A DNA stretch of 64,000 nucleotides from an uncultured Saprospiraceae bacterium. Its GTDB lineage: Bacteria; Bacteroidota; Bacteroidia; Chitinophagales; Saprospiraceae. A program made the position numbers and the translations under genes. Position 1 is the stretch's first letter. The number at the start of each line of letters is the position of its first letter. Below are positions 58,969 to 63,084 of the stretch, piece after piece. The stretch is taken from positions 1-64,000 of the forward strand of contig CALLWB010000101.1 of the NCBI GenBank assembly GCA_938016265.1. The letters run 5' to 3'. Under the pieces are notes generated by a model. The model worked only from the letters and a program-made list of their open reading frames with translations, ran no database searches and had not been told where the DNA came from.

Positions 58969-59730
58969 ATGCTAGGAATTTGTTTGTCAGGTGGAGGAGC
59001 TCGAGGTATGGCTCATATAGGTGTACTTAAAGCGCTGGAAGAACATGCGATTTTCCCGGATGCTATATCTGGAGCCAGTGCAGGATCAATAGTCGGATCA
59101 TTGTATGCTTCAGGTATGAGCCCTACAGAGATTCTGGATATGGCGAAACATCAAAGTTTGTTCAAAGCTTTCCGACTTGGCTTACCAGGTACTGGATTGA
59201 CCAATTTGTCTTACCTCAAGGATATTCTTAATGAGAACATCACCCACGATTCCTTTGAAACCCTTCGCAAAAAACTATTTGTCTGTGTTTCTAACTTGCA
59301 CAGTGGTGAATATGAAATATTAAACACCGGTTCATTATATGATGCGGTAGTAGCAAGTTCTTCCATACCAATTTTCTTTGAGCCTGTAGAAATTGAGGGC
59401 AAAAAATACGTAGACGGTGGTCTATTGAATAACCTGCCCATTGAGCCGCTAAAAGCGTCATGTGATCTCGTGATTGGAGTAAATGTAATGCCTCACGGCC
59501 CTGTACCTAATACTAAAGTAGACAGCATGTTAGACATTGGGCATCGCGTCATGGATTTAATTGTTTGGTCGAATGTAAAAGACAATCTTGCGCAGTGTGA
59601 TATTGTAATTGAGTCAAAAGGCGTATTTGAATACGGTATTTTTGATTTTAAGAAAACAGAGGAAATTTACCAATTAGGGTACGACGAGACGGTTAAACAA
59701 ATCCCTGAAATTTTGAAGAAAATTTTATAA
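58969..59730 (+). CDS. Patatin-like phospholipase (RssA-like)
   Basis: The protein has 253 aa with no signal peptide. The oxyanion loop SGGGARGMAHIG is followed by the nucleophile elbow GASAG (Ser37). Asp149 in VDGGLLNNLP completes the Ser-Asp dyad. This is a patatin/cPLA2-type lipid acyl hydrolase, probably cytoplasmic or membrane-associated, acting on phospholipid or lysophospholipid. The length and motif order match bacterial RssA-like proteins. It is transcribed alone, opposite to the ClpA-like gene downstream. No T9SS or barrel part is present, unlike PlpD-type secreted patatins. Confidence 0.93.
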   Translation: MLGICLSGGGARGMAHIGVLKALEEHAIFPDAISGASAGSIVGSLYASGMSPTEILDMAKHQSLFKAFRLGLPGTGLTNLSYLKDILNENITHDSFETLRKKLFVCVSNLHSGEYEILNTGSLYDAVVASSSIPIFFEPVEIEGKKYVDGGLLNNLPIEPLKASCDLVIGVNVMPHGPVPNTKVDSMLDIGHRVMDLIVWSNVKDNLAQCDIVIESKGVFEYGIFDFKKTEEIYQLGYDETVKQIPEILKKIL

Positions 59731-59814: not shown

Positions 59815-62800
59815 CTAAGCTTGTCCAGCATAAATTAGCAACTTAAATTCATTGACGGTGATATTGATATCGGTGGTAAATCCTGTTCTGATATCAGTCA
59901 AGGTGTTGGTACCATCATAGACGCGGACTACCTTCCAGTTTTCCTCCTCTGTCTTCTCCTCGCTGTGAGGAACAAGATTGAGTTTGATGGGCAAGGGAGT
60001 TTGGTGCGTGACGTAAAACAAATGGATTCCTTGTTCTTTTGCTAGTAATTTTTGGATGCCATAGCCTTCGATGGAAATCTTATTCCATTTTTTGTGCACC
60101 TTGAACTCCAGTTCTAAATTTTCAAAAAAGGTCTCATAGTGCTCCAACAGATATTCCATTTCAGATTTCCCCATGTTGGTGATGCATGATTCTAATTGGA
60201 GATCAATTTTGTCGATCTTCTTTTTCCGGAACCCCTTGGAGGATAGTTTTAAAAACTCCACGCTAAAAAAATCATTCAAGTACTCACTTTGTGCCTTATC
60301 AAAATGGGTTTGCCCATACTTATAGATATCACGTAATTCGTCCAGGCCTTCTTTTTGGAAAAACTTGTCTTTATGCATTTCTCTTAGCCCCTTGTTGTTG
60401 TAGTCATCCCGCTTTGCGATAAAACTAGAAAACTTCACCCGTTTCAAGCGCATCGGAATAACAGGATTGGACTCAATAATGTCATGACCATACCCAAGTT
60501 CTCTCCGTTTTAACAACTCGCGAAGATCGCCAAACCGATCTCTAAAATTGTAGGAGATAATCGTTTGACTATCCATCTCGCCGGTATATATCATAGTAGT
60601 CGGCGCACTAGGAATAGATTGTTCTATATGGTCAAGTTCTCTGAGAAGATTTCTATAAAATCGTTTCCCTTTATTTTCGTCAGGTGTAGAAGGCAGCCAG
60701 TCGGAATTAATTGCCTCTACAAAATCAAGTGGGGTTACTTTTGGATAAAGTCGATTGTCTTTGAGTATGATTTCAAAAATAATAGGTCGTTCCGAGTAAG
60801 TGGCCACCAATTGTTCCGCTGACAAAGTAGTGAGGTCGCGTTCTATCTGGCGTTTGAGTGCTCGTCCGCCCATTTTTGCATTGAAGCCGCGGCGAGCGAC
60901 CCATTCCAAGGCATTGGGAGATATATTTAATATAGTTGTCCGACGCACAAACCCATCTCGGCTCAGCAATTCTTTGATTTGCAGCTGTGCAATATTCAAA
61001 ATATGATCCAACTCCAATGGATTGAAAATGACAATCCGATTTATTCGGTTTACAAATTCCGGGCGGAACTGGCGTTCTACTGCTTTTTTGAAAATGGCCG
61101 ATTCTTCCTGCGGAGAGGAGGTAAATCCCAGTTTTGTCCCTGCATCCCGAGCTCCGACATTGGAAGTCATAATGATCACGGTATTCGAAAAATCTACTGT
61201 TCTTCCCAGGCTATCTGTCAGACGTCCGTCGTCAAGTACCTGGAGCAGCAAATCGTGAATTTTTGGATGCGCTTTTTCAATCTCATCAAACAGAATTATA
61301 CCGAAGGGTTGATAGCGGACGCGGCCCGTCAATTGTCCTTGTGGGTTGTGGTAATCTCCGATCAATCGCTGGACGGCGTATTCATCGATGTATTCATTCA
61401 TATCGAACCGCATCAAATGATCTTCGCTGCCCATCAAATAGTTGCACAATACCTTTGCGGCTTGAGTTTTACCAACACCAGTAGGTCCAATAAACAGGAA
61501 CGAACCAAGGGGTCGATCCGGATCATTCATTTTGGCTTTTATCACATGAATGACATCACTCAGGCATTGAACTGCTTCTTGCTGTCCTACGAGGTTTTGG
61601 GCGATGGTTTTATAGACTTCGTCCTTTTCGAACAAGTAAGTTTCGTCAAATATTTCTTGGTGTAGTCCGCTAATCTCTTCAAATTCTTTTCTTACCTCGA
61701 GGGAATCGATCAATCCAAATTTGTACTTGTTTGCCAGTTGTCTTAGGAAATTGACCACGCTACCAGGCAGTGCTTTTCGTTTCCAATAATTCCTGTGGAT
61801 GGTAAATAATTGGCTAATTGCTAGTGAATTGATTTGGCAGCCAAATTCGAGTTCCAGTACTTTTCTTTGTTCGGCCACCATTTTTACGGAGGTCTCTAAA
61901 TCTGGTTCAGAGACTCTGATCACCTGGAAAAGGTCGGCGAAACGGCGGTCTTTTTCTTGAAGGACTTTCCACTCTTCAGGCGTGGCGATGAGGATCATCT
62001 GAAACAACCGTTTTTCGAGGTAAGGCTTCAGGACATCGCTGAGTGTCATGCTATTTTGTGAAGACTTTCCGATTCTGAGCATAGCGACGATATTGTCTAC
62101 TACGATTTTATCAGTCGCTCTGCCAAACTCCATTCTTCGGACGCGGACGTATTTTAGGATGGCTTCGAACCGTTTTTGCCACATCCCAACGATGCTCATA
62201 CCGGAGATGATTCGGGTGGGGTCAATATTCCACATACGTTCTTGCCGTTCGAACTGAACTTTTATATTTTTTGTCCGGTATCGGTAAACGACTTCATGGA
62301 GAATACTTCTTTTGCCCACTCCTTCATCCCCAACTATTACGATGGGTGAGTTGTCTAGTTGATAGATGATATTATAGATTCGATCAACTAGTGATTCTCT
62401 GTAAAATGCCCGTTTCAATTCGGTGGGATAAAGCTCATTCATATCATATCCTACCTTTTCGATCTCTACAGAACCTTCAAAATCTTCACTTCCGCTTAAC
62501 TTATTGAAGATAAAATCCAGGGAAGAAGTTTGGAATGGGAATTTGCTATTTTTTATGTCTACGTTGACCTTTGCGGTGGTGATAAACTCTCCTTTGGTGG
62601 CGGTATATTCATTGATATCAAAATCATCACCATCTTCTTTTTTGTTCCTTTTCACAAAATCAATGATAAAGTCTTCTACTTGTCCTTGGATATCATATTT
62701 TCCTTTGTGCCCTTTTTTTGCCATAAAAACATGGCTATTGAACGCTGGCAACAACACAAAACAGTGCTCTTTTAGAACAAACCAGGAAACGGCGAACTTT

Positions 62801-63084
62801 CCGGAGACATACTGTTTTCCGGCGACAAAGTCCATTTTAAATATTTTGAATTCTAATTTTGGATTGAACTTGTACCAAAGTAATTCTTCCAAGGTATCTC
62901 TGGAAAGTTGTACGCCTTTTAGCCGATGTCTGATTTCTTTTTTAAAATTGGTTAATGCCTTGTCAAATCGGCGATCGGAAGCTCCTGGATAGTTAAAAAA
63001 AAGAGGTCTTAGGAAATAGGCTGGCTTTTCTCCTAGTTTAATGTTTTGCACCAATATTGGGAACTCAAAAGCGATATAACTCAT
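59815..63084 (-). CDS. Divergent ClpA/ClpB-like double-AAA ATPase with PCRF-like C-terminal region
   Basis: The protein has 1089 aa. Residues ~1-210 do not resemble the Clp N-domain. AAA-1 (~225-440) has Walker A GDEGVGKRS, but its Walker B region reads KIVVDNIVAM with Asn where Glu is expected, so ATP hydrolysis there may be impaired. AAA-2 (~495-760) is complete: GPTGVGKTQ, ILFDEIEKAHP, TSNVGA, FRPEFVNRI and GGRALKRQIE as in ClpA/ClpB. The last ~300 residues are unusual; the region near 990-1050 (SEMEYLLEHYETFFENLELEF, then IEGYGIQKLL and KEQGIHLF) resembles the PCRF domain of release factors but lacks GGQ. It is probably an unfoldase of unknown substrate. No ClpP-docking loop (IGF/IGL) was evident. 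Confidence 0.8.
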   Translation of the reverse strand: MSYIAFEFPILVQNIKLGEKPAYFLRPLFFNYPGASDRRFDKALTNFKKEIRHRLKGVQLSRDTLEELLWYKFNPKLEFKIFKMDFVAGKQYVSGKFAVSWFVLKEHCFVLLPAFNSHVFMAKKGHKGKYDIQGQVEDFIIDFVKRNKKEDGDDFDINEYTATKGEFITTAKVNVDIKNSKFPFQTSSLDFIFNKLSGSEDFEGSVEIEKVGYDMNELYPTELKRAFYRESLVDRIYNIIYQLDNSPIVIVGDEGVGKRSILHEVVYRYRTKNIKVQFERQERMWNIDPTRIISGMSIVGMWQKRFEAILKYVRVRRMEFGRATDKIVVDNIVAMLRIGKSSQNSMTLSDVLKPYLEKRLFQMILIATPEEWKVLQEKDRRFADLFQVIRVSEPDLETSVKMVAEQRKVLELEFGCQINSLAISQLFTIHRNYWKRKALPGSVVNFLRQLANKYKFGLIDSLEVRKEFEEISGLHQEIFDETYLFEKDEVYKTIAQNLVGQQEAVQCLSDVIHVIKAKMNDPDRPLGSFLFIGPTGVGKTQAAKVLCNYLMGSEDHLMRFDMNEYIDEYAVQRLIGDYHNPQGQLTGRVRYQPFGIILFDEIEKAHPKIHDLLLQVLDDGRLTDSLGRTVDFSNTVIIMTSNVGARDAGTKLGFTSSPQEESAIFKKAVERQFRPEFVNRINRIVIFNPLELDHILNIAQLQIKELLSRDGFVRRTTILNISPNALEWVARRGFNAKMGGRALKRQIERDLTTLSAEQLVATYSERPIIFEIILKDNRLYPKVTPLDFVEAINSDWLPSTPDENKGKRFYRNLLRELDHIEQSIPSAPTTMIYTGEMDSQTIISYNFRDRFGDLRELLKRRELGYGHDIIESNPVIPMRLKRVKFSSFIAKRDDYNNKGLREMHKDKFFQKEGLDELRDIYKYGQTHFDKAQSEYLNDFFSVEFLKLSSKGFRKKKIDKIDLQLESCITNMGKSEMEYLLEHYETFFENLELEFKVHKKWNKISIEGYGIQKLLAKEQGIHLFYVTHQTPLPIKLNLVPHSEEKTEEENWKVVRVYDGTNTLTDIRTGFTTDINITVNEFKLLIYAGQA

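Follow-up and report, generated by a model that had tools for sequence, protein, structure and literature searches.

The window, a stretch of 64,000 nucleotides from contig CALLWB010000101.1 of an uncultured Saprospiraceae bacterium, carries a gene (F1; positions 59815-63084, reverse strand, as are all F1 features below) for a Clp-type AAA+ ATPase with a C-terminal region that resembles a bacterial release factor (RF) without its GGQ domain. The reading frame is single and uninterrupted, starts with ATG and encodes 1089 residues (protein P0001). Two AAA+ domains, D1 and D2, and a D2-small domain are present: Pfam matched AAA_2 (residues 524-683) and ClpB_D2-small (690-761) above cut-off and gave AAA signals below cut-off at about residues 227-375, with no match at E-values up to 1 in the first ~205 or the last ~325 residues. 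A sequence-only reading of this DNA had proposed a Clp-type ATPase fused to an RF-like C-terminus, an observation that the single frame, its Pfam domains and the comparisons with relatives confirmed. The best NCBIfam model was ClpB (339 bits, cut-off 1232), with its strongest stretch over D2, and ClpA scored 317 bits against a cut-off of 993; because these scores are far under the cut-offs, P0001 was assigned to neither equivalog family. Identity as the secretion-system ATPase ClpV was also rejected (NCBIfam TssH 252, cut-off 885), and the F1 neighbour genes that were read included none recognised as belonging to a secretion system. A role in defence was rejected because the PADLOC matches fall on ATPase parts, those of DolB and PDC-M37B lying over the D2 ATPase with the lead-in to it (467-648), that of mad8 over part of D1.

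An AlphaFold2 model of residues 764-1089, built on an alignment of 33 C-termini (A1, without L052 and L061, which are cut at the C-terminus; a further alignment, A2, held 34 sequences, without L048), reached a predicted local distance difference test (pLDDT) of 83.6 and a predicted template modelling (TM) score of 0.85. Foldseek against the PDB returned 456 matches at E-values up to 10, seven of them at up to 0.001. Ranks 1-17, including all seven, were class-I RFs (the chains from 8akn, 4v63 and 9d7r, whose titles do not name the chain, we take to be RF1), and rank 18 was an unrelated protein with an E-value of 0.26. The query-normalised TM-scores were low (0.20-0.28), as expected if the domain positions differ. 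Upon VIA re-alignment, rows 1-42 of the best 50 were RF1, RF2 or mitochondrial RFs (the chain from 5o2r, likewise unnamed in its title, being presumably RF1), and row 43 was a designed helical protein (Z-score 8.2). The top row was E. coli RF2 (1gqe), with a Z-score of 13.0 and a root-mean-square deviation of 3.8 over 225 residues, model residues 39-326 against RF2 6-362, and many other rows superposed at 2.4-3.0 Å over ~126-137 residues. Rather than a fold unrelated to PCRF, the model thus matched class-I RFs above all.

The profile-profile comparison that had been proposed with the sequence-only reading also gave an RF hit. In hhalign the F1 C-terminal family scored 37.5 against 15 release factors, where 41 unrelated neighbour families scored at most 24.0, the reversed RF alignment 25.7 and the reversed query 24.1. 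A larger template of 50 release factors (26 RF1 and 24 RF2, E. coli included) raised the score to 42.5 (P 6.9e-5), and cutting RF domain 3 out of it (99 columns from column 235) raised it to 59.0 (P 1.6e-7, probability 94%, 102 columns), the alignment now extending from PCRF into the domain-4 signature. When a deletion of that size was slid along the template in 12 positions, the score rose only at start 225, which is nearly domain 3 (score 62.0); the remaining 11 deletions, including ones that partly removed domain 3, gave at most 42.8. Given this gain, the C-terminal region is most readily understood as a release factor minus its GGQ domain. That it comprises RF domains 1, 2 and 4, with domain 3 absent (residues 802-1089; 59818-60681), is well supported by the model, Foldseek, VIA and hhalign. 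The earlier reading of the C-terminus as RF-like was supported, and the PCRF likeness that it proposed stood in both fold and profile; its restriction to PCRF did not, since RF domains 1 and 4 are also present and the similarity continues through domain 4 to the last residue. Pfam searches of the 33 individual C-termini found PCRF in one member (E-value 0.011), among 26 similarly weak families, and PF03462 run over 30 relatives matched one orthologue (G017, E-value 0.26) amid many weak matches and was not used as proof.

The motif LLAKEQGIHLF, which the sequence-only reading had considered RF-like, occupies residues 1013-1023, and its E-x-G-x-H core (EQGIH, residues 1017-1021; 60022-60036) is, by alignment and profile comparison, the counterpart of the ESGxH/ETGVH of RFs; the profile comparison, which does not depend on the model, paired the same helix-strand unit along with it. 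Twelve columns are invariant across the 33 aligned C-termini, including the E, G, H and F of E-x-G-x-H-x-F, R-x-Y and D-x-R, and the motif is not a product of chance since its E, G, H and F are found in 33/33. The domain-4-like signature VRVYD...TDIRTG (residues 1053-1068; 59881-59928), counterpart of RF2 IRSY...KDLRTG, was also aligned to RFs by hhalign, and its R-x-Y ... D-x-R pattern is kept in all 33 sequences. The G-x-x-E tip, which in RFs contacts the first stop-codon base, is kept in 27 of the 33. As previously noted for this gene, no GGQ domain follows: GGQ was found neither in P0001 nor past residue 700 in 48 F1 rows or the further F1 proteins examined, nor in those of the related groups F2 and F5 described below. 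Judged by eye, most of the 33 rows have HLFYxxHxxPLP or a similar sequence following E-x-G-x-H, a stretch shorter than in RFs, and PxT or SPF, the codon-reading tripeptides of RFs, are not present there. The loop that would read the stop codon thus appears to have been replaced.

The 48 F1 rows comprise sequences with >38% identity and >1000 aligned columns, with P0001 and L071_8 added; two are duplicates, which leaves 46 different sequences (L074_3 equals P0001, and L043_6 equals L080_6), and the partial loci L050, L064, L067, L068 and L072 were excluded. In this set D1 (about residues 225-480, limits approximate; 61645-62412) is degenerate, with Walker A GKRS and Walker B VVDN in P0001. The position of the catalytic glutamate of Walker B holds N in 47 rows and D in one, and 41 rows have H, K or R directly after the lysine of Walker A, so that D1 seems incapable of ATP hydrolysis. 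D2 with D2-small (residues 490-761; 60802-61617) keeps Walker A and B, sensor 1, the arginine finger and sensor 2, and these intact motor motifs predict an active ATPase. Its pore loop is remodelled, GDYHNPQG (residues 576-583; 61336-61359) replacing GAPPGYVG..., and is 4-7 residues shorter than that of E. coli ClpA in ten aligned F1, F2 and F3 examples. At the position of the E. coli ClpA tripeptide IGL lies LGF (residues 652-654; 61123-61131), and 43 of the 48 rows have [LIV]G[FLYW] there; VGF stands at this position in the ClpC-like protein of the same genome, and E. coli ClpB has nothing similar. Docking to ClpP via the LGF loop may be inferred from this alignment.

The N-terminal domain (residues 3-178; 62551-63078) was left unrecognised in the sequence-only reading, which holds in that Pfam gave no match there, for HicB or otherwise. 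Its AlphaFold2 model (pLDDT 83.7), on the other hand, resembles the fold of the antitoxin HicB: VIA rows 1-8 had Z-scores of 7.9-6.5, six of them titled HicB and the other two (3kwr and 5yrz) taken by us as HicB-like, and the next row had a Z-score of 4.1. Because the Foldseek E-value was only 0.13, and VIA Z-scores under 8 can reflect a common arrangement, this likeness is a lead at the level of the predicted fold.

F1 was found in 17 of 60 genomes (our own and 16 of 59 relatives), all in the same family, with orthologues of 38-63% identity at full length or nearly so, except in G009, where the match starts at query residue 195. Among the matches listed, the other 20 genomes of the family and 23 of other families had what look like ordinary ClpB/ClpC-type proteins. 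A scan of species genomes yielded 39 F1 loci, most of full length, under titles of Saprospiraceae, Saprospirales, Aureispira, Phaeodactylibacter, Chitinophagales and Bacteroidetes, plus L071 (genome G451) from a second phylum. In that phylum 7 of 149 genomes carry a nearly complete F1; the G585 copy, which lies at the end of a contig, is matched from residue 143 onward. Searched with the A1 profile, 395 Bacteroidota genomes gave only our own genome and one weak match (E-value 8.7e-5, 65 columns), which was rejected as chance because the protein is neither an RF (RF hidden Markov model (HMM) E-value 0.028, four-sequence search) nor a Clp protein.

Two paralogues accompany F1. Assigned by match span and length of the open reading frame, an F3-like protein was listed in all 17 F1-bearing genomes and an F2-like protein in 16, the exception being G009. 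The genes lie in a row as F2-F1-F3 in six of the seven second-phylum genomes (those of G585 are in pieces on short contigs), with overlaps of 4 bases at both junctions in L071 and at the first junction in L159. In the tree, built without three intended rows that lack an exact Walker motif (the genome's own ClpB among them), F1, F2 and F3 each form one side of a branch with support of 100/99, F1, F2, F3 and F5 together split from ClpA/ClpB/ClpC-like rows at 100/100, and the tree leaves the F5 pair unresolved (54/90); L167_6, a row without a group, is placed within F3. By this tree the clade of P0001, with its paralogues F2 and F3, is separate from ClpA, ClpB and ClpC. F3 has no tail. The F2 tail gave weak RF matches with 8 sequences (probability 1.9 to 12), its score of 24.5 being no better than that of one unrelated control (24.2, probability 3.8), and with 14 sequences gave probabilities of 74.6 to the domain-3-less RF template and 86.6 to F1, for which the controls are those of the 8-sequence comparison only. 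The F2 tail thus appears RF-like as well, on weaker evidence than that of F1. The six second-phylum F1 tails alone reached a probability of only 9.4, and a comparison of F1 with the pair of F5 tails gave no more than 6.6.

Two further second-phylum proteins with the same Clp core, L164_7 (1169 residues) and L168_4 (1188 residues), keep more of the release factor. Their tails passed Pfam PCRF at 36.4 and 37.4 bits (cut-off 24), and a local RF HMM run on 82 proteins found them at E-values of 2e-14 and 1.4e-10, the best reversed control being 0.62. A profile of the pair aligned to release factors over 306 columns (P 4e-14), and here the removal of domain 3 lowered the score, from 106 to 89. Searched against 72,556 plasmid records at E-values up to 1e-3, the L164_7 tail matched a single record, annotated prfB (E-value 6e-5, 82% covered). 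L168_4 (L168:4676-8242, reverse strand), a Clp-like ATPase with N-terminal HEAT repeats, seems to retain domain 3 with its GGQ replaced and is possibly a transitional form. One clade would accordingly hold a series of RF remains, from a GGQ-less domain 3 (L168_4) through no domain 3 (F1) to no tail (F3). L165, L167, L171, L173 and L174 hold other long second-phylum Clp-like ATPases; the tails inspected do not resemble RFs, and some of the genes adjoin what we read as FHA-domain or Ser/Thr-kinase genes.

Set against known systems, F1 shares with class-I RF1/RF2 (PF03462 PCRF plus a GGQ domain) the fold of domains 1, 2 and 4, the E-x-G-x-H, R-x-Y and D-x-R motifs and mostly the G-x-x-E tip, but has no GGQ domain, sits behind a Clp ATPase and has its codon-reading loop shortened, mostly to H-x-x-P-[LIV]-P or similar. 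With ClpA/ClpC it shares the D1-D2 layout, ClpB_D2-small, the D2 motor motifs and the [LIV]G[FLYW] loop; unlike them it forms a separate clade, has lost the D1 Walker B glutamate and the D2 GYVG, and carries an N-terminal domain of possibly HicB-like fold without a Clp_N match as well as the RF-like tail. Although ClpB/Hsp104 supplied the top NCBIfam model, the score was far under that of a member, and unlike E. coli ClpB F1 has the ClpP-like loop. The bacterial RF homologue PrfH (VIA row 46, Z-score 7.2 to the F1 tail) has GGQ and, unlike F1, no ATPase fusion. Balon and Pelota/Dom34, the latter not known to have GGQ either, are members of the aeRF1 family instead of that of bacterial RF1/RF2, and are not known to carry an AAA+ motor. 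Like the F1 tail these are release-factor relatives, and they sit in the A site. Balon is described as an RF relative without GGQ that occupies the A site of bacterial ribosomes (PMC10901736).

We consider it an even prospect that F1 is a Clp/Hsp100-type subunit of a separate clade whose tail, of RF descent and without a GGQ domain, serves a ribosome-directed remodelling or proteolysis machine. The tail would derive from a class-I bacterial RF that lost its peptide-release (GGQ) domain. F1 would assemble with F2 (RF-tailed) and F3 (tailless), and the RF-like tails would settle into the factor site or the A site of the ribosome, neither reading stop codons nor releasing peptides. ATP hydrolysis by D2 might then remodel a ribosome-associated protein or deliver it to ClpP via the LGF loop, the target being most plausibly stalled or idle ribosomes. 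Because the RF tail follows D2, and the end of D2 in ClpA faces ClpP, the tail would lie on the exit side, so that the ribosome may be an anchor and not the threaded substrate. From the RF likeness of the tail we infer ribosome binding, and with it the recruitment to ribosomes that the sequence-only reading had suggested. The genome also encodes RF1, RF2, ClpP and tmRNA, which F1 therefore need not replace. Known bacterial ribosome rescue relies on tmRNA-SmpB, ArfA/ArfB or RqcH, and degradation comes after release; an unfoldase with its own RF mimic, if true, would put an ATP-driven motor at the ribosome itself. A Clp motor with a disarmed RF copy suggests an undescribed machine acting at the ribosome, and no paper on a Clp-release-factor fusion was among the matches listed in the literature searched, subscription papers and preprints being outside its scope. 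The fuller picture, in which a three-subunit F1-F2-F3 Clp-like machine places GGQ-less RF mimics in the A site of stalled or idle ribosomes, perhaps with ClpP, as a quality-control or remodelling pathway absent from that literature, is put forward tentatively.

Several observations weigh against a ribosome-directed motor. In Saprospiraceae the F1, F2 and F3 genes lie on different contigs, and no translation genes were recognised among the recurrent F1 neighbours that were read. None of the 48 F1 rows, nor any F2 or F3 example in the alignment, has the GYVG pore loop, and threading of the canonical kind might therefore be lacking; the ClpP-docking-like tripeptide is missing in 5 of the 48 rows, and a tail placed behind a ClpP-facing D2 might compete with ClpP. 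With the codon-reading loop shortened and replaced, ribosome docking itself could be lost. Nor did every search see an RF: Pfam found no match at E-values up to 1 in the P0001 C-terminus alone, the A1 profile against PDB sequences found no RF and three chance matches, and in the RF HMM search of the 82 proteins the best F1 E-value was 0.078. The silence of Pfam and the PDB profile search for this tail, together with the low identity in the VIA RF rows (13-23%), would fit a convergent similarity or a structure-prediction artefact; this is highly improbable, and largely refuted by the profile evidence, which is independent of the model, by its rise without domain 3 and by the relatives that pass Pfam PCRF.

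A more serious competitor, though one we regard as rather doubtful, is that the domain derived from an RF has become a relic scaffold for subunit assembly or for binding a protein partner, its contact with the ribosome gone. Such a relic would account for the replaced codon-reading loop and the lost GGQ domain, and it agrees with the greater divergence of the second-phylum F1 tails and with the lack of recognised translation genes among the recurrent neighbours; it sits uneasily with an E-x-G-x-H, R-x-Y and D-x-R core that is invariant in 33/33 C-termini, a G-x-x-E tip kept in 27/33, and the retention of the domain by two different paralogues, F1 and F2. Alternatively, the tail might, like Balon, plug the A site when ribosomes are idle, and the AAA+ part might load or remove it, which would make F1 a hibernation or reactivation factor. 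Balon sets a precedent for this, being an RF relative that lacks GGQ and occupies the A site in bacteria (PMC10901736). Against it, the RF fold family of F1 differs from the aeRF1 type of Balon and no link to a stress operon was seen; we judge this role unlikely.

Beyond the window, an 880-residue protein with two AAA domains that we read as CbbX/SpoVK-like is encoded at contig C101:69788-72427 (L074:14789-17431). Members of its family turned up close to F1 in 15 compared loci, but the family was rejected as a specific F1 partner because it is widespread without F1, occurring in 42 of 60 relatives, many of which lack F1. HAD-phosphatase-like and UbiA-like families each occur in 12 compared loci, mostly just downstream of F1 and often with Maf-like and ferredoxin-like genes (L043, L059, L078, L057 and others), and we read this neighbourhood as a housekeeping context with no obvious link to F1. 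The gene downstream of F1 in the window (58969-59730, forward strand, opposite to F1), not among the recurrent neighbours seen, encodes a patatin-like phospholipase, of which we take its GGGARG motif to be the mark.

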